IMG/VR virus record: IMGVR_UViG_3300032322_000915
Location: 1-31,245 of that record
Length of the DNA stretch: 31,245 bases
Direction: 5' to 3' (one strand)
From: a virus
The position numbers were made by a program, and so were the translations under genes. Each line of letters opens with the position of its first letter. Position 1 is the stretch's first letter. Below, in pieces: positions 855 through 19,400 of the stretch. The notes under the pieces are model-generated. The model ran no database searches. It was given only the letters and a program-made list of their open reading frames with translations, and had not been told where the DNA came from.

Positions 855-1415
855 CTACTCCCCCTCCCCGCCCCCGGTGGGGGGCTGGGTATCCCCCGCC
901 TCACTTACTCCGTCCCCTAGTAAGTCAGTTGGTGTAACATCAATCATGTTAGTAACATCAGGTGCTAGTAAGTTGGCCAACCTAGCCTGTATCATATCGC
1001 ATATGTTAGCGTGTAAGTTAGTGGTGGATTCATTAGCTTGCGGTTCCTCGAATAGGCTAGCGTATTTAGTCTTACCTGCAAGTTCTAATGCTTTGAGTCT
1101 GGTTATGTCTGAATCGGTATTCGTTATGGTAGATGTGATTCCCTCCATTAACCAGTTCTGGAACTTACTTTTGTTCTCCCATAATCTCGCGGTTTCTCTA
1201 TCCCTTATTGCTGTAGTCAAAAGGGACACTTTAGGGTGTGCCGCCGTCCTGGTCGCCTCAACGTGCATTGCTGGTTTGCTGCTACCGTTCCAGCCATACA
1301 CTTGTCGATAAGCTTCTCCCTTAGATATTCCCCCAGCGGCCAATGCCCTAGCTAGCTTTACCTGTTTCGGAGTCATGCCCCGTTCTAGTTCTGCAATCGT
1401 TCTTCCCTTTGACAT
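855..1415 (-). CDS. Probable terminase small subunit
   Basis: The protein is 186 aa from the ATG at 1415; an in-frame GTG at 1421 is also possible and has the better-spaced GGATGG upstream. The N-terminus has the form 'MTPKQVKLARALAAGGISKGEAYRQVYG...' followed by 'AHPKVSLLTTAIRDRE' and later 'RLKALELAGKTKYASLFEE'. This matches the helix-turn-helix plus 'KALELLGK' layout usual in small terminase subunits of the Terminase_2 type. Those proteins bind the packaging site and recruit the large subunit. The C-terminal 15 or so residues are Gly/Pro rich and coded by a GC-rich hairpin-forming stretch. The large subunit is not in the window. The assignment rests on pattern recognition only. Confidence 0.6.
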   Translation of the reverse strand: MSKGRTIAELERGMTPKQVKLARALAAGGISKGEAYRQVYGWNGSSKPAMHVEATRTAAHPKVSLLTTAIRDRETARLWENKSKFQNWLMEGITSTITNTDSDITRLKALELAGKTKYASLFEEPQANESTTNLHANICDMIQARLANLLAPDVTNMIDVTPTDLLGDGVSEAGDTQPPTGGGEGE

Positions 1416-1458
1416 AATCACACTTTACCATCCAATACACTTTGCGACGCAAAGTACT

Positions 1459-1489
1459 TTATCCACAGTTTTTCCACAGTTTTTCCACA
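1459..1489 (+). repeat. Three DnaA-box-like sites at 11-bp pitch
   Basis: TTATCCACA at 1459-1467 is a perfect match to the E. coli DnaA box. TTTTCCACA follows at 1470-1478 and 1481-1489 and fits the relaxed TTWTNCACA consensus. Starts are exactly 11 bases apart and all are on the same strand. Confidence 0.7.
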
Positions 1490-1633
1490 TGGTCTATTTG
1501 CTCATTACATGACCATGGCGAGATTCTTTGTTTGGTTGATACCGTAGCACGTTTCACTAAACGATTGCATGGTGCCCCGCTATAGGCTCAATACGTCGAT
1601 CTTCATTTATTAAGGTTTACTATTATTTGCCAT

Positions 1634-1657
1634 CGTGGAACATATAAAGGTTCCACG
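1634..1657. repeat. Spaced inverted repeat, copy 1
   Basis: CGTGGAAC (1634-1641), an 8-base spacer, and GTTCCACG (1650-1657). The same arms with the same 8-base spacing recur at 1719-1741. Flanking CATCGTGGAACAT is also shared, suggesting iteron-like binding sites for an initiator or regulator. Confidence 0.6.
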
Positions 1658-1665
1658 CCCACAGT

Positions 1666-1685
1666 TTTTCCACAGGTTTTCCACA
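1666..1685 (+). repeat. Two DnaA-box-like sites at 11-bp pitch
   Basis: TTTTCCACA occurs at 1666-1674 and 1677-1685, again 11 bases apart and in the same orientation as the first cluster. A degraded site, TTTCCCACA, follows at 1698-1706. Confidence 0.65.
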
Positions 1686-1718
1686 GTTTGCCAGCATTTT
1701 CCCACAGATAGGAGACAT

Positions 1719-1741
1719 CGTGGAACATTTGCACGTTCCAC
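1719..1741. repeat. Spaced inverted repeat, copy 2
   Basis: CGTGGAAC (1719-1726), an 8-base spacer, and GTTCCAC (1735-1741). It begins 85 bases after copy 1 and has one fewer paired base. Confidence 0.6.
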
Positions 1742-1743
1742 AG

Positions 1744-1763
1744 TTTTCCACAGGTTTTCCACA
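1744..1763 (+). repeat. Two DnaA-box-like sites at 11-bp pitch
   Basis: TTTTCCACA occurs at 1744-1752 and 1755-1763, the third cluster with an exact 11-base step. It directly follows the second spaced inverted repeat. Confidence 0.65.
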
Positions 1764-1774
1764 GCTCACACATC

Positions 1775-1796
1775 ATATATACGCGCGCGCGCGCGT
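1775..1796. other. Alternating purine-pyrimidine tract
   Basis: An ATATAT run leads directly into A(CG)7T (1781-1796), a 16-bp perfect palindrome. The strictly alternating 22-base tract could adopt Z-form DNA or act as a melting or bending element next to the last DnaA-box cluster. Confidence 0.6.
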
Positions 1797-1810: not shown

Positions 1811-1827
1811 AGTCTCATGGAGAGACT
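1811..1827. repeat. AGTCTC palindrome, copy 1 (diverged)
   Basis: AGTCTCATGGAGAGACT has 6-base arms and is the most diverged copy of the palindrome family. It lies just upstream of the promoter candidate at 1849, where a regulator could act. Confidence 0.55.
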
Positions 1828-1848
1828 AAAGAATATCTAAAAAAAAAT

Positions 1849-1878
1849 TTGACAGGATATTGTCCAGTATGGTTCAAT
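1849..1878 (+). promoter_or_regulatory. Early promoter candidate
   Basis: TTGACA at 1849-1854 is a perfect sigma70 -35 box preceded by an A-tract (about 1839-1847) like an UP element. With an 18-base spacer the -10 would be TTCAAT (1873-1878), a 4 of 6 match to TATAAT; no better -10 is visible. It would drive the plus-strand early genes from 2227 on. The weak -10 leaves room for an activator. Confidence 0.45.
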
Positions 1879-2226: not shown

Positions 2227-2796
2227 ATGAATTATTTGACGGTTATTCGTAACGCGGCCACACGCCGCGCGGAATTGTTTGGCGTGATGGCGCGCGCGCT
2301 ATTCGTCGTTAGCGAACAGGAACTCTTTAAGCCGGAGTTCACCACGATTCAAAAGTGGTTAGATGGTAACGGGATAGAGATATCCCGCGCCACCTTTTTC
2401 AGGATGCGCCAATTGGGGCTTATGCTCCAGTACGTTGAAATTTCGGACAAAGAGCTTGCTTCAGTAGGTGAGGCAAGTATGTATGAACTGGCGCGGTTAG
2501 GCCAATCTCACGAGTTGGCCACTAAATTCTGGGATTCGGGCGATATCCCTCGACTCATCAACGCCAGAATCAGTGGGGACATCCCCACTGTAGCGGCGCT
2601 TAAATCTGAGGTTGATACCCTACTGGGGAAAGCCCCCAAGGGCGAAAAGGAACCTGAAGGTTCCAGTGAGGGCGAGTCGCCCGATAAAGGCGACGAGTGG
2701 AAGGCCAAATATACGGCTCTCGTGGCGCGGATGCGCCAGCTTGCGCCGTCCTACCAGGCGGACAGGTTCGTAATCGACGTTCTGCAGGGACTCTAA
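2227..2796 (+). CDS. Putative DNA-binding early protein with HTH-like segment
   Basis: The 189-aa product starts MNYLTVIRNAATRRAEL. I chose the ATG at 2227 because AGGAG lies five bases upstream; an ATG at 2203 is part of the palindrome and has no ribosome-binding site. Residues about 40-70, 'FTTIQKWLDGNGIEISRATFFRMRQLG', followed by 'SVGEASMYELARLG', resemble regulator or partition-type helix-turn-helix proteins ('..WLE.ELGISRRTAYRY..'). The C-terminal third is charged (KGEKEPEGSSEGESPDKGDE) and ends in a short helical tail. As the first early gene, next to an origin-like region and two palindromes, it may bind one of these repeats. That is inference. Confidence 0.65.
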   Translation: MNYLTVIRNAATRRAELFGVMARALFVVSEQELFKPEFTTIQKWLDGNGIEISRATFFRMRQLGLMLQYVEISDKELASVGEASMYELARLGQSHELATKFWDSGDIPRLINARISGDIPTVAALKSEVDTLLGKAPKGEKEPEGSSEGESPDKGDEWKAKYTALVARMRQLAPSYQADRFVIDVLQGL

Positions 2797-2888: not shown

Positions 2889-3148
2889 AAGAATTAGTTC
2901 GCATGGCGCGTTCGCGGTATCGTCGCGCCTGTTACATGGCATCCGGCGCTGCTATGGAGCGTAACGGTGGCCCGTGTTTCTTCACGGGTGCGCCTAGCAT
3001 AGCCCGGCGCGTCGCTAAGCGTACGGGTGTGCCGATTGCTGCGATTATCGCAACCCCTCAGGAGCCATGGGACTCCGCGTATTACGCCGGGAGGTATTAC
3101 TCTGGGCGGGATGAGAGATTCAATCTCGACATGGTGACGTGTGAATAA
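2885..3148 (+). CDS. Small basic protein, unknown
   Basis: This 87-aa product begins MKELVRMARSRYRRACYMAS and is arginine-rich in its first half, with two cysteines. A CAGGAGAG ribosome-binding site precedes the ATG. A segment 'SIARRVAKRTGVPIAAIIATPQ' could form a helix pair, but I do not recognise a family. Its end overlaps the GTG start of a tiny membrane protein by 8 bases. Confidence 0.6.
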   Translation: MKELVRMARSRYRRACYMASGAAMERNGGPCFFTGAPSIARRVAKRTGVPIAAIIATPQEPWDSAYYAGRYYSGRDERFNLDMVTCE

Positions 3149-6292: not shown

Positions 6293-7318
6293 ATGTATTC
6301 GCAACAGTTCATGAAGGCATTGCAGGTAGCCATCCACGCAAGGGTTCCCGTGTGGGTATGGGGGCAAGCTGGAGTGGGTAAGTCTTCCATCATTCGATCA
6401 GTAACCAAGGCGCTGAACCGTGACCATATCGACGTGCGCCCCACGACGATGGATCCGGTAGACATGGGCATACCATATATCGAAGGCGGCGTATGTCGTC
6501 GCGCTATTCCATCCTGGTTGCCGACTCACGACAATACGCTAATGGCTATTGAGGAGTTGCCCGATGCGCCGATGTCGGTACAGTGTGCGCTGTATCAGTT
6601 GGTACTGGAGCGCAGGCTAGGCGATTATGCGCTACCCGGTGGCGCGTATGTGTGCGCTACGGGCAACCGCGCACAAGACGGCGGCAACTACAACCAGCCG
6701 CCCACGCCGCTACTGAATCGGTTCCTCCACCTCCAGTTGGATTCCAGCTTCGATAGCTGGAACGACTGGGCTATCAACGGCGACAGTCTCAAAGTGGAAC
6801 TCGTCGCGCCCAAGGCAATCACCCCGTACATCCGACCGGAAGTGCGCGGGTTCTTCTCGTTCCGCAAAGACCTACTCGTGGCGCAACCCAACAAGAGCGA
6901 GTTTGCTTTCTGCACTCCCCGATCCGTTGAGATGCTTTCTCGTATCGTAGACCAGGAACCTGATGCCGACATCGCCGCCGAGTTAATCAACGGGTGCATT
7001 GGACAAGGCACAGGTACAGAGTTCCTTGGATTCCTCCGCACATGGCGCAGTCTGCCTACGCTGTCAGCTATCGAGGCATCACCCTTGACCGCAATCCTGC
7101 CCAAGTCATTGAGCGAATGCTACGCCACCGCTACTTACTTAGCGGCGAACTGGCAACCTAACAACTCCAACGCACTGTGCGAGTACATCAACCGCATGGT
7201 TCCCGAATACGGGTGCCTATTCCTTCGAGATGTTACCAAGCGCAACCCGCAGGCCATCACCGTACCGTCTGTGATGGGAATGCTCAACGATGTCAAGTAC
7301 AAGGACATCTTATTCTAG
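6293..7318 (+). CDS. MoxR-type AAA+ ATPase
   Basis: The 341-aa product has a Walker A at residues 24-31 (GQAGVGKS), Walker B at about 83-90 (LMAIEELP), a sensor-1 Asn in 'CATGNRAQDGG' (N125) and an arginine in 'LLNRF' (R143). This is the MoxR/YehL-like branch of AAA+ ATPases, which remodel or activate partner complexes together with VWA-domain proteins. Here a VWA protein lies 1.3 kb downstream on the same strand, with a DUF3150-like protein between them, a known kind of pairing. Start fixed by GAGGAGATAGAT upstream. The phage substrate is unknown; possibilities include metal insertion, complex assembly or interference with a host complex. Confidence 0.8.
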   Translation: MYSQQFMKALQVAIHARVPVWVWGQAGVGKSSIIRSVTKALNRDHIDVRPTTMDPVDMGIPYIEGGVCRRAIPSWLPTHDNTLMAIEELPDAPMSVQCALYQLVLERRLGDYALPGGAYVCATGNRAQDGGNYNQPPTPLLNRFLHLQLDSSFDSWNDWAINGDSLKVELVAPKAITPYIRPEVRGFFSFRKDLLVAQPNKSEFAFCTPRSVEMLSRIVDQEPDADIAAELINGCIGQGTGTEFLGFLRTWRSLPTLSAIEASPLTAILPKSLSECYATATYLAANWQPNNSNALCEYINRMVPEYGCLFLRDVTKRNPQAITVPSVMGMLNDVKYKDILF

Positions 7319-7336
7319 AGTCTCATTGTGAGACTC
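7318..7336. repeat. AGTCTCA palindrome, copy 7 (inverted)
   Basis: GAGTCTCATTGTGAGACTC is the exact reverse complement of the 19-bp core found in copy 3. It starts on the last base of the MoxR-type gene and ends 23 bases before the next start. Confidence 0.7.
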
Positions 7337-7359
7337 CCAACCAAATAGGAGATATCAAT

Positions 7360-7647
7360 ATGAATTGGCTTCCTGAAATCAAGATCAAAATCAAGAAAGT
7401 GAAAGTCAGCATGAGCGCATTCGACTGGCACTTGTTCTCTGACTTGCGCGGGGCTGAGGCAGTTGCTCGAAAGCTCAATAGAAAGTTTGAAAAGTGCGTT
7501 GAACAAGATATGTCGCCAGACGATATCTGCATCGAGATGAGGAATCTCATGATGCAGAAAGAGAACAGAGAGTTTGGAGCAGGCGATACAGAACCAAACC
7601 GAACGCTCAATAAACTCATCAATGTCATACACAAAGACTGGTATTAA
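7360..7647 (+). CDS. Hypothetical protein (95 aa)
   Basis: The product begins MNWLPEIKIKIKKVKVSMSA, with a lysine-rich alternating start, then helices ('AEAVARKLNRKFEKCVEQDM', 'DICIEMRNLMMQKENREF'). I chose the ATG at 7360, with AATAGGAGATATC upstream, over a longer frame that runs back through the palindrome. It sits between the MoxR-type and DUF3150-like genes and may belong to that cassette. No family recognised. Confidence 0.6.
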   Translation: MNWLPEIKIKIKKVKVSMSAFDWHLFSDLRGAEAVARKLNRKFEKCVEQDMSPDDICIEMRNLMMQKENREFGAGDTEPNRTLNKLINVIHKDWY

Positions 7648-7698
7648 ACCAACTAACCACTAACCAACAACCAACCAACAACAAGGAGATTACTTATC
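7648..7698 (+). promoter_or_regulatory. CA/AC-rich unstructured leader
   Basis: The spacer is almost free of G before the AAGGAG ribosome-binding site and repeats ACCAAC/CCAACA. Such a sequence keeps the mRNA open around the start of the 295-aa gene. Shorter AACCAACC runs follow palindrome copies 5, 6 and 7 as well. Confidence 0.4.
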
Positions 7699-8586
7699 AT
7701 GTTATCGAATCAGGCAGTTCTCGTGCGGTTCACCGTTTCTCAGTGGACTGGATATAAGTTTGACAAGAAGGCGACCGAAGAGGTGGAAGCCAACCATGGC
7801 GCGAATAAACACGCCGGGGAGGTTGGCCGATTCAACAAGCAGTTGGCCAGCAAGAAGTACATGAAAGATCTTTCGAGCAACATCTCGAATGCTCGTGCGT
7901 ATCACTACGAGCAGACGCTGCCATGGCAGGATGCCGAGGGTGTTCGCATCCTGCCAGTCAAGAACTACCAGAACTACCAGCAGAAGATGTCGGACTTCCG
8001 CAGCAAGCACGAAGAGGCGCTGGACAAATTCGTGCAGGACTACCCGGACCTCATCGACGAAGCACGGTATCGGCTGAACGGATTGTTCAACGCCGCAGAC
8101 TTCCCCCTACTGGGCGAGATTCGCAGCAAGTTCTCTTGGGAGATCTCGTTCATGCCCTTGCCTGAAGCTGGCGACTTCCGAGTATCGCTGTCGCAGGAAG
8201 TAGTAAAGCAGATGGAACTCGACCTGGAGAAACGACTGGCCAACAACTATACCGAAGCCTGCCGCGACCTATTCGACCGCGTACATAAGCAGGCAACGCA
8301 CATGGCCGACAAACTGGCCAACTACACTGGCACCCGAGACGGTGCTTTCCGTGACTCCCTGGTTGAGAACGCCAGAGACTTGGCGGCGCTGTTGCCACGC
8401 CTCAACGTGGGCGGCGATGCCCGACTCGATGCGCTGGCTCGTGACATCGACAACAAGTTGTGCCAGTACAGCGCCCAAGTGTTGCGCGAGAACGATGCAG
8501 CTCGTGCCGAGGTAGCCATCGACGCCAAGGCTATCGCCAAGCAGACCGAAGACATTCTCGCTCAGATGAGCGGCATGTTCGCATAG
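7699..8586 (+). CDS. DUF3150-like protein
   Basis: The 295-aa product begins MLSNQAVLVRFTVSQWTGYK and contains 'RAYHYEQTLPWQDAEGVRILP', 'FVQDYPDLIDEARYRLNGLF' and 'SWEISFMPLPEAGDFRV'. The order 'xW.G.K.D...T.E...HGA' then 'TLPW.D.G.RILP' then 'F.F.....PLP...DFRV' is what I recall for DUF3150 proteins, which often sit beside MoxR-type ATPase and VWA genes in phages and plasmids. The C-terminal half is helical. AAGGAG lies upstream and the VWA gene starts eight bases after its stop. Biochemical role unknown; the family name is from memory and should be checked. Confidence 0.6.
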   Translation: MLSNQAVLVRFTVSQWTGYKFDKKATEEVEANHGANKHAGEVGRFNKQLASKKYMKDLSSNISNARAYHYEQTLPWQDAEGVRILPVKNYQNYQQKMSDFRSKHEEALDKFVQDYPDLIDEARYRLNGLFNAADFPLLGEIRSKFSWEISFMPLPEAGDFRVSLSQEVVKQMELDLEKRLANNYTEACRDLFDRVHKQATHMADKLANYTGTRDGAFRDSLVENARDLAALLPRLNVGGDARLDALARDIDNKLCQYSAQVLRENDAARAEVAIDAKAIAKQTEDILAQMSGMFA

Positions 8587-8594
8587 AGGACGAC

Positions 8595-9716
8595 ATGACA
8601 CCAGCCGACAAGATCATACGCAACAATGTCAAGCTGGCGATGGGGAGCGAGGTGTTCTTCGGAACCCTCGCCCTTCGCTTTCCCTGGATCGCAGACGAGT
8701 CCTGCCCAACCATGGCAACGGACGGCACTGCTTTCTATTACAACCCTAAGTTTGTTGAGTCGATATCCCAGGAAGAAGTAAAGGCTGTAGTGATCCACGA
8801 GATAATGCACGTCGCATTACTGCACCCGATGAGCATGAAAGGCTATGAGCCACGTCGCGCCAACATCGCCATGGATTACGCGATCAACCTGCTTATCACA
8901 GACAGTGGGTACAAGTTGCCTTCCTGTGCTTTGCTCGATGAACGATACCGCAATATGTCATGGCAACAAATCTACAAGCTATTGCCTGAACAGAAAAAAG
9001 AGCAAGGCAATAACGGCGGTGGCGGCAACGACTACACCAACGGCGATGTGATGCCTACCCCTGGCAATGCGGAGCAGCAAGCTGCTGCTACGGAGAATGC
9101 CAAGGTAAGCGTGGCGCAGGCCGAGCAGAAGGCCAAGGCCATGGGCCATATGCCTGGGCCGATACAAAAGATGGTAGTGCAGGCTCGTGAGCCGGAAGAG
9201 AACTACCAGTATCTATTCCAGAAGTTCATGGCACCCGTCTTCCCCACTGACTACACCTGGGCGCGGCCTTCGCGCCGATTCATGGGGCAGGGTATGTACC
9301 TGCCAAGCGTACTCAAGACTGGGGTAGGTACGCTTGTGGTGGGAGTCGATACGTCTGCTAGCGTAGCCAGCGAAGACCTCGATAAGTTCCTGGGCCTCAT
9401 CAATCACTTCCTGGCCAAGGTTCGGCCAGAGATTACGCACGTCCTGTACTGCGACACCAAGGTATACAGGCATGAACAGTTCAAGCCGGGTCGTCCGATG
9501 GACCTCAGCGGATTTACTGCGAAGCGCGGCGGCACTCGCTTTGCTCCAGTGTTCGACTACGCACGGAAGCAAGAGCTTAAACCTAAAGCGTTTGTGTACT
9601 TAACCGACATGGAGTGCGATGAGTTTGGCACGGATCCTGGTGTGCCGATGTTGTGGATGCGCGTGGGCGATTACAAGATCACCCCACCATTCGGTACTGT
9701 GATCGACCTAAAGTAA
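8595..9716 (+). CDS. VWA-like protein with metallopeptidase-type HEXXH (DUF2201-like)
   Basis: The 373-aa product starts at the ATG at 8595 with AGAGGA upstream; the open frame back to 8460 overlaps the previous gene and is not used. Residues 68-72 are HEIMH in 'KAVVIHEIMHVALLHP', a zinc-site motif. A linker (about 133-185) is rich in Gly, Asn, Gln and Ala. A VWA-like domain follows, with 'GVDTSAS' (250-256, DxSxS metal site), 'RGGTRFAP' (311-318) and 'YLTDME' (335-340). This two-part layout matches DUF2201/VWA-like putative metallopeptidases. It closes the rightward early block and is probably a partner of the MoxR-type ATPase. Confidence 0.75.
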   Translation: MTPADKIIRNNVKLAMGSEVFFGTLALRFPWIADESCPTMATDGTAFYYNPKFVESISQEEVKAVVIHEIMHVALLHPMSMKGYEPRRANIAMDYAINLLITDSGYKLPSCALLDERYRNMSWQQIYKLLPEQKKEQGNNGGGGNDYTNGDVMPTPGNAEQQAAATENAKVSVAQAEQKAKAMGHMPGPIQKMVVQAREPEENYQYLFQKFMAPVFPTDYTWARPSRRFMGQGMYLPSVLKTGVGTLVVGVDTSASVASEDLDKFLGLINHFLAKVRPEITHVLYCDTKVYRHEQFKPGRPMDLSGFTAKRGGTRFAPVFDYARKQELKPKAFVYLTDMECDEFGTDPGVPMLWMRVGDYKITPPFGTVIDLK

Positions 9717-9760: not shown

Positions 9761-11551
9761 CTACACTAACTCGTAGTATGTGCCAGTGGGGATGTCGTAC
9801 TTCAATCGCGTCATCCCCTGCTTGCCTATCCACTTAAACCTACACTTCCAAACGTGCAGTTCAACGTAGCCGTCCTGGTCTTTGCGATGAACTGTCAACC
9901 CGCAATCGGTCTTGTTGTACCAGTGCGCGGATCCGCTAATCTCATACCCACCTGGAACCATAGGCGTTGTGCCTTGGTTCTGCATCTTTGCCGGATGCGC
10001 CACGAACCATACATGAATGTTCGATGCTTTGGCGAACGCCGATACCTTGCTTAGCATAAGCGAAACTGATTCTGTCTCACTCTGAGTTTGATTGCGCCCA
10101 AGGTCTAAGCAGTTGTACGGATCAATCACTAATCCATCTATTCCATAACGCAACACTGCGGCATGGGCGCGGTCGAGTAGTGCATCGACTGTGGGTAGAT
10201 CGCGACTGCTGGCGAAGTCGATGAAGGTGAAGTGCTTCTGACACCAAGCGATAGCGCCTTCGGCTTCTGCTCTCGTCATACTCCCCGGCCATTGACTGAA
10301 GAACGGTTTCTTCAGGTGCATCTCTGACAGTTTGGATATGTGTTTGGCTGGCTCATTCTCCATGGATGCAATGGCAAACTTCCACCCTTCCCGATGCGCC
10401 AGATTCACCATGATCTGATCGAGGAAGTTGGACTTGCCCGAGGATGGAATACCCGTTACCACGGTCATCTGCCCCCGCGCCACGGTGTACAGTTGATCGA
10501 CTCCAGCAAACCCGGTACTCTCTCCCCGGCCATCGCCCTTAACGAATAGCTCCATCACCTGATCGGCGTAATGGTTTGCCGTATGCAGCGCCGTAAGAGG
10601 CATGGGCCGAGCATCCAATATCACTTGGCGCAATACGTCTGGTCCATGGTTAACCAGTACATCGTTGGCGTCTTTACTTCCTGATGGGTACGTTACCGAC
10701 ATGCACCGACTGCGGCCAAGCCTACGCGCCAACTCTTCGCATAGGTTTTTCCCTGGTGTGTCGTTGTCCACGCACAGCACATACATGCTGAACTTTCCCA
10801 AGAACTCTTCGAGATCGGCAATCCACGAGAACCTCTGGCTGTTGCCCTTCTCACTCTTTACTGGCGCACCCGCTGGCACCGATACCCAATTGGGTATGCC
10901 TGCCTGCGCTACCGATAAAGAGTCCATCTCTCCTTCGCATATCACTAGAGGACGAGTGATATCGAACTTCTGATGCAGGCCATACAGCAAGCCACCCGCG
11001 CCAGTGTCTTGGGCAAATGCCTTTGCCGCCGCCGACCGATACTTGTTGCTGGCGAGGTTGCCATCCAGATCGTAATACGGGAAGGCGATTACGTCCTGAT
11101 CCCCTCCACCAGAACGCAAGAACTTGCGGGTACTGCTGAGCCTGCCCAGGCTGGCAGTGTCTTCCGATATGCCACGCCGCTGCAAGTATGCAACGTGCTG
11201 CTGTATTAGCTTCTGCCCAGTTGCCACTACCTTCTGCTCTGGTATCGGTTCCACTTGTGGCGCAGGTATAGGCGCATCATTCTCAAACAGGAAATCCAAA
11301 TCGCTCAAATCAACCACTTCGCTTTGCTCCTCATATGCAATCTCGTAATCGTATTGCGGAGTCTGCACCACGCCAGACGCTCCACAATGATGGCAGTGGT
11401 ACACGGACCCTAGTTCGCCACGCGACCACGACAACACGGGTATCTTGGCATTCGCGCCACGACGATTGGCGCTGCAATCGGGGCATAGCGTACGCCACCA
11501 GCCACGCCCCGACGATTCAAACCTCGCACCCAGAATATCAAACGTAGGCAC
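9761..11551 (-). CDS. Primase-helicase (T7 gp4-like)
   Basis: The 596-aa product starts at a GTG (11551). It carries an N-terminal zinc-binding motif (C23, C26, C53, C56), a TOPRIM primase domain ('VICEGEMDSLS' at 203-213 and 'VDNDTPG' at 261-267) and a DnaB/RecA-like helicase domain with Walker A 'GIPSSGKS' (367-374), 'ENEP' after strand 2 and Walker B 'LVIDPYN' (474-480). The order is that of phage T7 gp4, which unwinds DNA at the fork and makes RNA primers. Length fits the family. It is the only minus-strand gene between 1.4 and 16.3 kb. It converges with the VWA gene and diverges from the recombination module. Confidence 0.9.
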   Translation of the reverse strand: MPTFDILGARFESSGRGWWRTLCPDCSANRRGANAKIPVLSWSRGELGSVYHCHHCGASGVVQTPQYDYEIAYEEQSEVVDLSDLDFLFENDAPIPAPQVEPIPEQKVVATGQKLIQQHVAYLQRRGISEDTASLGRLSSTRKFLRSGGGDQDVIAFPYYDLDGNLASNKYRSAAAKAFAQDTGAGGLLYGLHQKFDITRPLVICEGEMDSLSVAQAGIPNWVSVPAGAPVKSEKGNSQRFSWIADLEEFLGKFSMYVLCVDNDTPGKNLCEELARRLGRSRCMSVTYPSGSKDANDVLVNHGPDVLRQVILDARPMPLTALHTANHYADQVMELFVKGDGRGESTGFAGVDQLYTVARGQMTVVTGIPSSGKSNFLDQIMVNLAHREGWKFAIASMENEPAKHISKLSEMHLKKPFFSQWPGSMTRAEAEGAIAWCQKHFTFIDFASSRDLPTVDALLDRAHAAVLRYGIDGLVIDPYNCLDLGRNQTQSETESVSLMLSKVSAFAKASNIHVWFVAHPAKMQNQGTTPMVPGGYEISGSAHWYNKTDCGLTVHRKDQDGYVELHVWKCRFKWIGKQGMTRLKYDIPTGTYYELV

Positions 11552-16406: not shown

Positions 16407-19400
16407 TTCTCTCCTGGATGTCGTTCAGCTCATCTCGTTTCTGATCGGCTGTTAGGTCAGGACTCGCCAGTACAGTACGCTTCAAGCGATTCAGGGCCTG
16501 CACTCGTTTGAGTGTGGGCTGAATTGCTTTGTCAAGAGATGCCATGGCGCGTAACTCTTCTTTCTTATCTTCCGACAACTCACGTTGTCCTTTCGACACA
16601 GCGCGAAAAGTAGTAGCTGCCATGTTCGCCGCCTCGTCCAGTTCGTACAAATCTTCAACCGCTCTCTTGCCGTTAGCAGATTTGAACAATGGACCAATAA
16701 CAGGGAGAAGGTAAGGCTCTGAAAAACGCAGGCGCTCTGGAGATGCTACATCCTTGCCACCAGAAAACAACATACCTGCTAGGTCAGCAGTCATAGCGCC
16801 AACGGTTCCAGTGTATCCTCGCACCAAATGATCCAGCTTTACGGGAGAGTAGCCGATCTCTTCGCCGATCTTCTTGTAAAATTCTGAGGTGTATTCGGTA
16901 TAGCGTTGCTCAGGGATAAGACGTTGCAGGTAGGCGTTTTCGATTGGCTTGCGCGTGTAGTAATCGAAGTTGGCCGCATTCTCAAGGAACGGACGGAATG
17001 CCTGTGGATAAGGATCGAACGATAGAGTACCCCAGAGCGCACGCTGTAATGCCTCAACCATCTCTGGGCCATCGGATTGGCCAAGATACCAAGACATCAA
17101 TCTCTCAGGCAGCATCTTGGTAATGATCCCCATTTCTTGCGGGATCGGGAACTTTACAACAGTGCCTTCCTTTATGCCGGGAATCCAATCAATTGGAATG
17201 AATATGTTGGCGTCCCGCTCGTCGTTTGTGGAGTTTAGCCACGCCTTGTTGGTGGCCATTGCAGCGGCATATAGCACTGACAAGATAGCTACATAGGCCA
17301 TCCTACGAACAGCAACCTTACGAGACCCAGCACCCATGCTGGCTTCTGCCAGCTTATCGCCAAACACGGTGCGAGTGAAAACATCCAGGCCCTGTAATCG
17401 TGCATTGAAAAACGGTAGAAGCGCCATGGCGATTTGAGCGCCACGAGAGTTGCCACGGCGACTGAAGTTGATGGTTTCCATGGCAGCAAATACCGCTTCA
17501 TCAACATCTCCAGTCTCCTCAAGAACCTTCTTGTACACCTGAGTTCTCGAAACGCCTTCAGATAATTCCGACACTCTCTCTAAAGCGCCAAACGATTTAG
17601 AGAATACGCCGAATAGCTTGGACATAGCCTCATCCTGTCCAGCGCCAATCTTCTTGCGGATTGATTTAGCAGTATCTGCAACAGACTGCTGTCGGATGCC
17701 AGAAGCCGCAACGCCAGCTTGCTTGAGCGCCCGATACTCTGGGGAGTTCTGCGCTACCGAAGCAATGCCCTTCATCCATTCACCAATTGGGGGGGTGAGA
17801 TCGGATCCAATACCACCCTGCATCCAAACCTGCAACACGTCGCGAACAGAGTTGCGAATGATGAACGAAGGCGATGCTGTTACGCCACGGCGCAAGATCT
17901 GGGTAAATACCCCCATTACCTTCAGGGCATCTTGCAGAGGAACACCGGACTTGGCGACTGCATCGTATACCATCGGGTCGTTCACTTGATAGTATTCCTT
18001 AACCCCATTGTTCTTTATGTTGATTACGTTTGTTCCGTATTCAGCGTCCTTTGGTTCCTGGATTTGCTTCATGTATCCAGTCTCTAGGCCGTCGCGAACA
18101 ACCCGCTGAGCGGCAACATTTTTCATGGCCGTGCCGACCATGTAGTAGGTGTTGTGAATGATGTTCTCCATGAAGTCATTCACGCGGAGATTGCGCCCAG
18201 TTAATGCTTTAGCGGCAGCAAGGTTAGTAGCTTTCGCGCCTACCATTGGCGCATCAACTTCTCCCGTCTCTATGTCTGCGCCTTCCGCTGTCTTTACAGT
18301 AGGCAAGCGATAGAAGGGGATGTAGTAAGCCTTCTTCCACAGCTCGCCCATGTTCTTGTCAATGAATCCGCTATTGACCAAAACATCAACCAGTTGGTTA
18401 TTGAAAGACTGGTACCTTTCTAAGGCACTATTGATGTCGTCATCCCCAGAAAAAGTATCCAAGGTCTTCTGAATCTGCTCTTTGCTGATTACCCCACCAG
18501 GATCCCTACCCGTCTTCATTAGATCCATGAACCGACGAGCACCAGCTACTTCGGCAAACTCTTCGAGTTTGTTAGCGAATCCCGGCTGAGATGCAGGCTT
18601 ATTAGCAAGATCCTGAAACATCTCAATCACAGAGTTCTGCGGATCGTCTTTAGCGATAACCCTCCCGCTTTCCGTAACCTCAAACCCACCATTCAATAGG
18701 CCGCTCATCGCTATGTCTTGAGCCTTATCAGAGAACAGCAACGCCTGATAAGCGCCAGAAGCAGCGGCGATGAACTTTGGATCCTGTGTTTGCTCGTATG
18801 CTTTCAATGCCCAAACACGAACAGGGTCATAACGATCCAAGAACTTCTGACGGAAAGAAGACCGACGATCAACTGAGAAGAAGTTGTAAACACGATCAAT
18901 CAATCCCTCCTTGGCCGGAGGAGTGAACATACGAGATAATCCACCAGGAGTTACTGAGACATCCTCGATCTCACTAGCTCCATCGCCAAGCCCAGTCATC
19001 ACATCGGGCTGGCCAGCAACGCGAGTCTTCTTCTTTCTCTTCTTCTTCTGCTGCTTTTCATTGGGCGCTGCTTTATCTCCAGGAGCAGAAGCAGTAGCTG
19101 GAGTGGCAGGAGTGGCGACAAACGGCTTAATCTCTTTTGGCGCTCCAATAGAAATCGGCCTCTGCCCAGAAACCTGCTTCCCTTGTGGCGTTACTTCAAA
19201 CGCCGGAGTATAAGCACGGCTACCAATTTCGCCAGACTTGATTGCAGCCAGCACATCTTCAGCAGAAGAGTAACCCATCTCGGCAGCAGTGCGACCGAAT
19301 CCAAGAACAGCCTTCACCTTGCCGAGAAGAGAGCGCGATACAGGATCCAAACGCTGAGGATCAACCTGGGTTAAATCAGCAGCAGCCTTAGCCACCGCTT

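Follow-up and report, generated by a model that had tools for sequence, protein, structure and literature searches.

A helically phased array of DnaA boxes at the divergent control region of a tailed phage, a candidate assembly site for host DnaA

The control region of a probable tailed phage carries seven DnaA boxes in three groups, within each of which the box starts lie exactly 11 bp apart. The DNA analysed here (the window) comprises all 31,245 bases of an IMG/VR record, which is classified as linear and probably represents part of the phage genome. The array is best read as a platform, apparently gained by convergence, on which host DnaA would assemble at an origin or an early promoter. 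Judged from the sequence, host DnaA quite probably binds the array; that the bound protein would also directly help to open or activate the locus is an evenly balanced proposition. Such a site is likely to represent the hijacking of the host replication starter by a phage.

The array and its surroundings

A sequence scan found TTWTCCACA at 1459/1470/1481, 1666/1677 and 1744/1755, always on the + strand, and thereby confirmed the seven boxes, their grouping (3, 2 and 2) and the 11-bp step described in an earlier note on this DNA. Across the 31,245 bp there are eight copies in total against a mean of 0.40 and a maximum of 3 in 100 dinucleotide shuffles of the window; the single copy outside the array lies at 17003, so that the count over the rest of the sequence, which had been proposed as a check, came out at one outside versus seven inside. 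All six copies of TTTTCCACA in the window fall in the array, and repeat finding recovered the 11-bp unit. The 2-bp linkers vary at about 5 of 14 positions and the boxes at 1 of 63 (the allowed W position; p ~5e-4), and this combination of variable linkers and constant boxes points to selection on the box, not to recent copying alone. Chance or low complexity as the origin of the array was ruled out by the shuffles together with this test of linker and box variation. The modules of groups 2 and 3 are near-duplicates, each of which also contains an everted CGTGGAAC...GTTCCAC element (Table 1).

Table 1. Features of the divergent control region and of selected genes in the window
Feature	Position	Strand	Remarks
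Terminase small subunit gene	855-1415	-	First gene of leftward block; phrog_51, E 0.0019
ACTTTGCG-A-CGCAAAGT dyad	1439-1455		Adjoins group 1; putative, read by eye; similar dyads in L007 and L127
DnaA-box group 1: TTATCCACA, TTTTCCACA, TTTTCCACA	1459-1489	+	Starts 11 bp apart
Isolated half-parS-like motif GTTTCAC	1551-1557	+
Everted half-parS-like pair	1631-1656	+	GTGGAAC (1635-1641), GTTCCAC (1650-1656)
Degenerate third unit of group 2: ACGCCCACA	At -11 from group 2	+
DnaA-box group 2: TTTTCCACA twice	1666-1685	+	Starts 11 bp apart
Degenerate eighth DnaA box TTTCCCACA	1698-1706	+	21 bp (two turns) after 1677
Second everted half-parS-like pair	1716-1741	+	GTGGAAC (1720-1726), GTTCCAC (1735-1741)
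DnaA-box group 3: TTTTCCACA twice	1744-1763	+	Starts 11 bp apart
Alternating CG tract	1780-1796		Conserved in L127 and L007
Candidate unwinding element	1827-1866		77.5% A+T; contains TTGACA of likely early promoter
First early gene	2227-2796	+	All-helical protein, possible regulator
Primase-helicase gene	9761-11551	-	TOPRIM and DnaB-like C-terminal domain; phrog_239, E 1e-89; Pfam Toprim_2, DnaB_C

The array is situated in the divergent gap between the small-terminase gene, which points leftward, and the early genes, which run rightward from about 2227 to about 16.4 kb with only the primase-helicase gene on the opposite strand; the remainder of the window is a long leftward structural block. 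The earlier description of the array as lying between leftward and rightward gene blocks, beside AT-rich DNA and in a phage with its own primase-helicase, was borne out on all three points. Erf and exonuclease genes are also present (Pfam/PHROGs). The AT-rich element begins 64 bp past the last box, and its A+T content is reached by just 0.02% of the 40-mers of the window; the TTGACA within it was assigned to a putative early promoter by comparison with the relatives L007 and L127. Among relatives, the best match of the small terminase was to phrog_1595 (E 2e-4). The first early protein was modelled as helical with fair confidence (mean pLDDT 76.5), and the model had no significant fold match in PDB or BFVD.

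Seven boxes of the array fit TTWTNCACA exactly and one is degenerate; that the DnaA of the phage host prefers such boxes is assumed. Both TTATCCACA and TTTTCCACA are consensus boxes in E. coli, where the TTTT class binds well only with C at position 5 (PMC5835720). TTTTCCACA is also the typical cyanobacterial DnaA box, shared with cyanobacterial oriC (PMC4674748), and nothing else links this phage to cyanobacteria. The low-affinity arrays of E. coli oriC (R5M-tau2-I1-I2 and C3-C2-I3-C1) consist of head-to-tail 9-mers exactly 2 bp apart, which share direction and helix face and lie close to AT-rich DNA (PMC4451416), and the same layout is found in the phage, with 2-bp linkers, a single direction, one helix face and the adjacent AT-rich candidate unwinding element. 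Unlike the E. coli arrays, that of the phage has boxes of consensus strength instead of weak ones, arranged in groups of two to three and without a convincing DnaA-trio.

The P1 plasmid-prophage origin and similar plasmid origins resemble the locus, a candidate origin, in belonging to extrachromosomal replicons and in combining DnaA boxes with phased repeats beside AT-rich DNA, and host DnaA is able to form the open complex at origins of the P1 type (PMC5043065). However, such origins possess iterons together with a Rep initiator, and neither was found in this phage. No Rep or initiator was detected among the window proteins scanned against Pfam and PHROGs (part of the genes of a fragment genome), and an initiator could sit among the uncharacterised or missing genes. 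Host DnaA is used at the early control region of phage lambda (PMC8203912), which differs in possessing its own O and P initiators and for which that source describes no such phased array. Searching plasmids for sequences similar to the array gave no match, and the host search recovered neither relatives in bacterial genomes nor a tRNA.

Several other elements were observed in the early region. The alternating CG tract is conserved next to the likely early promoter in the window, L127 and L007 alike and may form Z-DNA. A leader hairpin, AGTAGGCACATTATGAGTGTGCCTGCATGAGT, at 2140-2195 is conserved in L127 and L007 with four pairs changed on both sides, and an Rfam search with it gave no match. 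The sequence AGTCTCANNNTGAGACT occurs six times (2194, 2815, 3273, 4266, 5412 and 7319), several copies being just 5' of early genes, and other palindromes take its place in relatives: GTCCAAANTTTGGAC in G001 and L131, GTCTAGATTCTAGAC in L257, L130 and L128, and GTCCAAATTTGGAC in L127 and L007. From relative to relative the motif appears to vary in step with the type of first early protein, in the manner of a stoperator set and its repressor. Positions 6293-9716 encode a MoxR-like ATPase, a protein of 295 aa and a VWA/metallopeptidase, a cassette resembling one (MoxR, DUF3150, VWA) in Synechococcus phage MinM2.

Related loci and parS-type sites

Relatives of the window were recovered via a terminase search, a first viral-contig search with the ORF 2227-2796 having returned none, and nine loci of the same gene order, the window included, were compared, a small set with incomplete records. 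No exact TTWTCCACA occurs in the divergent gap of any of the eight other relatives, nor across the whole of the 53-kb G001, which is largely colinear with the window and probably near complete, as its small and large terminase genes lie at opposite contig ends. The closest relative by terminase, L127 (70% identical), is without the array. In L007, also among the nearest relatives, three boxes with one mismatch each, spaced at 11 bp, occupy the corresponding relative position ahead of half-parS repeats and a CG tract; a degenerate array of this kind was equalled in 1 of 20,000 shuffles. Loss of the spacing in relatives, which the earlier note had named as refuting its proposal, was thus partly observed, L007 alone keeping a degenerate 11-bp array. 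The absence of exact boxes from eight relatives means that the array is not essential to the lineage, and by these comparisons it is labile, not a lineage trait. In the parts read of named phages that share the gene order or a virion protein (MinM2, CRP-901 and DSL-LC04) no array was found. G001 encodes, at 38980-39819 (L138), a protein resembling a tyrosine integrase by eye, none being seen in the window, which suggests that the lineage may be temperate.

At the same locus, five relatives carry a perfect parS palindrome of chromosomal type, TGTTCCACGTGGAACA or its 14-bp core, namely G001 (L139), L257, L131, L128 and L130 (two copies), and this palindrome is identical to parS2 and parS3 of P. 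aeruginosa (PMC4368675). The parS palindrome TGTTNCACGTGNAACA is absent from the window. Half-parS motifs GTTCCAC and GTTTCAC are listed for P. aeruginosa ParB (PMC7022226), and GTTYCAC half-sites cluster in the divergent gap of seven of the nine loci. The gap of the window contains five against 0.24 expected (p ~5e-6), a count that is not fully independent evidence because some of these half-sites touch the array. In L007, four tandem 10-bp units ATGTTYCACG (2100-2141) each include a half-parS motif. No ParB_N was found in the five lineage records searched, G001 and L257 among them, and host ParB could still act. In the explanation that we prefer, this branch would have gained or retained the array, its relatives bearing other host-type sites, the parS palindromes, at the same place.

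Phased boxes in unrelated viruses

A lightly deduplicated sample of viral contigs was scanned for two boxes separated by any gap up to 30 bp; the IMG/VR contigs of this survey can include prophage or plasmid DNA. Among the matches listed, at least 120 for TTTTCCACA, the distances between TTTTCCACA pairs peak at 12, 21, 32, 11 and 22 and those between TTATCCACA pairs at 12, 11, 21, 22 and 32, which gives peaks at 11-12, 21-22 and 32-33 bp for both boxes alike. In the reversed-sequence control most peaks fall at multiples of three, as is characteristic of coding repeats. Pairs at 11-12 bp lie outside ORFs in 108 of the 177 matches listed (75/124 and 33/53), compared with 28% for random positions.

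The most extensive array belongs to a single-stranded DNA phage, Microvirus mar31 (L260, MZ089777), with eleven perfect 11-bp units GTTTTCCACAG at 2986-3104 between the capsid and pilot genes. A similarity search with the mar31 array gave no match, its own record included, presumably owing to masking by the repeat filter. Arrays with 11-12 bp spacing also occur in two other microviruses and in the T4-like cyanophages S-CAM1, ACG-2014d (both Synechococcus phages) and S-RIM44. Those of mar31, S-CAM1, ACG-2014d and S-RIM44 share with the window the box, the 11-12 bp phase and the non-coding position, but differ in that no common genes were seen at the loci and in the copy number, which reaches 11 in mar31. 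In the openly accessible literature we found neither DnaA-box arrays reported for cyanophages or gokushoviruses nor a function assigned to them. The survey suggests that arrays of helically phased DnaA boxes recur among viruses, and the array of the window is in this respect less exceptional than had been claimed. The recurrence of one 11-12 bp arrangement of one host box in viruses without evident kinship is the strongest reason to suppose a common host target.

Replication and competing explanations

Neither a DNA polymerase gene (A, B or III-alpha) nor a DnaA gene was found in five lineage records, including G001. A phage without a polymerase gene would depend on the enzyme of its host and would be well served by an origin that host DnaA opens. 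How podoviruses that lack a DNA polymerase gene bring the host polymerase to their own origin has been stated to be an open question (PMC9860041). Host DnaA monomers would bind cooperatively to the head-to-tail boxes on one helix face and build short oligomers next to the AT-rich element; these would assist in DNA opening, in activation of the rightward early promoter, or in both, after which host DNA polymerase III and the phage primase-helicase would copy the phage genome.

The signs of an origin at this place are mixed. Third-position GC skew of the + strand has no reversal at the locus (right block -0.06, left block -0.17), a constancy that gives no sign of a bidirectional origin and would be compatible with a unidirectional one. 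A switch of raw GC skew at about 1.5 kb was dropped as support for an origin, since it follows coding direction and is not seen at third positions. The scan for DnaA-trios (<=16 bp from a box, BUS) yielded nothing convincing; a single minimal run of three, which is not the GAT motif, follows box 1481, and runs of this kind would often arise by chance. The earlier proposal that the phage recruits host DnaA is therefore supported in part: the consensus, spacing, orientation and phasing of the boxes, the absence of polymerase and DnaA genes and the arrays in unrelated phages speak for it, whereas GC skew, the DnaA-trio scan and the eight relatives without exact boxes speak against a replication start at this locus.

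DnaA might act here as a transcription factor alone, setting the divergent terminase and early promoters by the host DnaA level, with replication starting elsewhere. We consider this unlikely, though it would account for an array between divergent genes and upstream of a TTGACA whose position is conserved in L007 and L127, and DnaA is known to activate ori-lambda transcription and the expression of the lambda replication initiators (PMC8203912). In cyanophage ACG-2014d, TTGACA follows only a few bases after the box pair, but in the window some 87 bp separate it from the last box, and a consensus promoter scan found no site there. Seven boxes in three groups also exceed the needs of known DnaA-regulated promoters. 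The lability of the array fits a promoter role and titration equally well. The latter, in which boxes would soak up host DnaA as phage copies rise and halt new rounds of host replication, is quite improbable: seven boxes per genome are few, they are confined to one regulatory locus instead of being scattered, and their exact helical phasing and common direction exceed what simple titration needs. Nevertheless, plasmids with DnaA boxes titrate DnaA (PMC5835720), and the phages with arrays are highly diverse; among them are ssDNA microviruses that have a replication initiator of their own and for which a role like that of oriC is difficult to imagine. Titration and initiation would look alike in sequence.

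It is likewise improbable that the repeats serve a phage protein as operator or packaging site, the candidates being the adjacent small terminase and the first early protein. Small terminases frequently recognise phased repeats close to the gene that encodes them, and the fold of the early protein hints, non-significantly, at the DNA-binding domain of the ParB-family protein SopB (E 0.98). Against this, L127 has no array despite its similar terminase, the 11-bp box unit is also present in microviruses and T4-like cyanophages, and a random 11-bp repeat would match TTWTNCACA in roughly 1 in 1,000 cases by our rough estimate. A terminase packaging (pac) site in particular is disfavoured, as the repeat is not conserved with the terminase. 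The least credible of the alternatives is a host-ParB (parS-type) region in which the DnaA boxes are drifted half-parS copies, TTCCAC being common to both. The full parS of five relatives, its identity to P. aeruginosa sites and the clustered half-sites favour it, but drift would not yield seven perfect DnaA boxes at a constant 11-bp phase, and the window has no full parS, its half-sites partly running into the array.

A broader proposal, which we put forward tentatively and hold to be rather unlikely, is that phages without a polymerase or initiator imitate the host origin region at their own control locus, with DnaA arrays in some and parS or half-parS in relatives, so that host DnaA and ParB would start or position replication; the 11-bp array would then have been invented repeatedly, even in ssDNA microviruses. 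A compact array of host-DnaA sites at the control region of a polymerase-less phage is a concrete, testable candidate for polymerase recruitment, and since phased arrays recur, one test of binding or replication could inform many unrelated phages.
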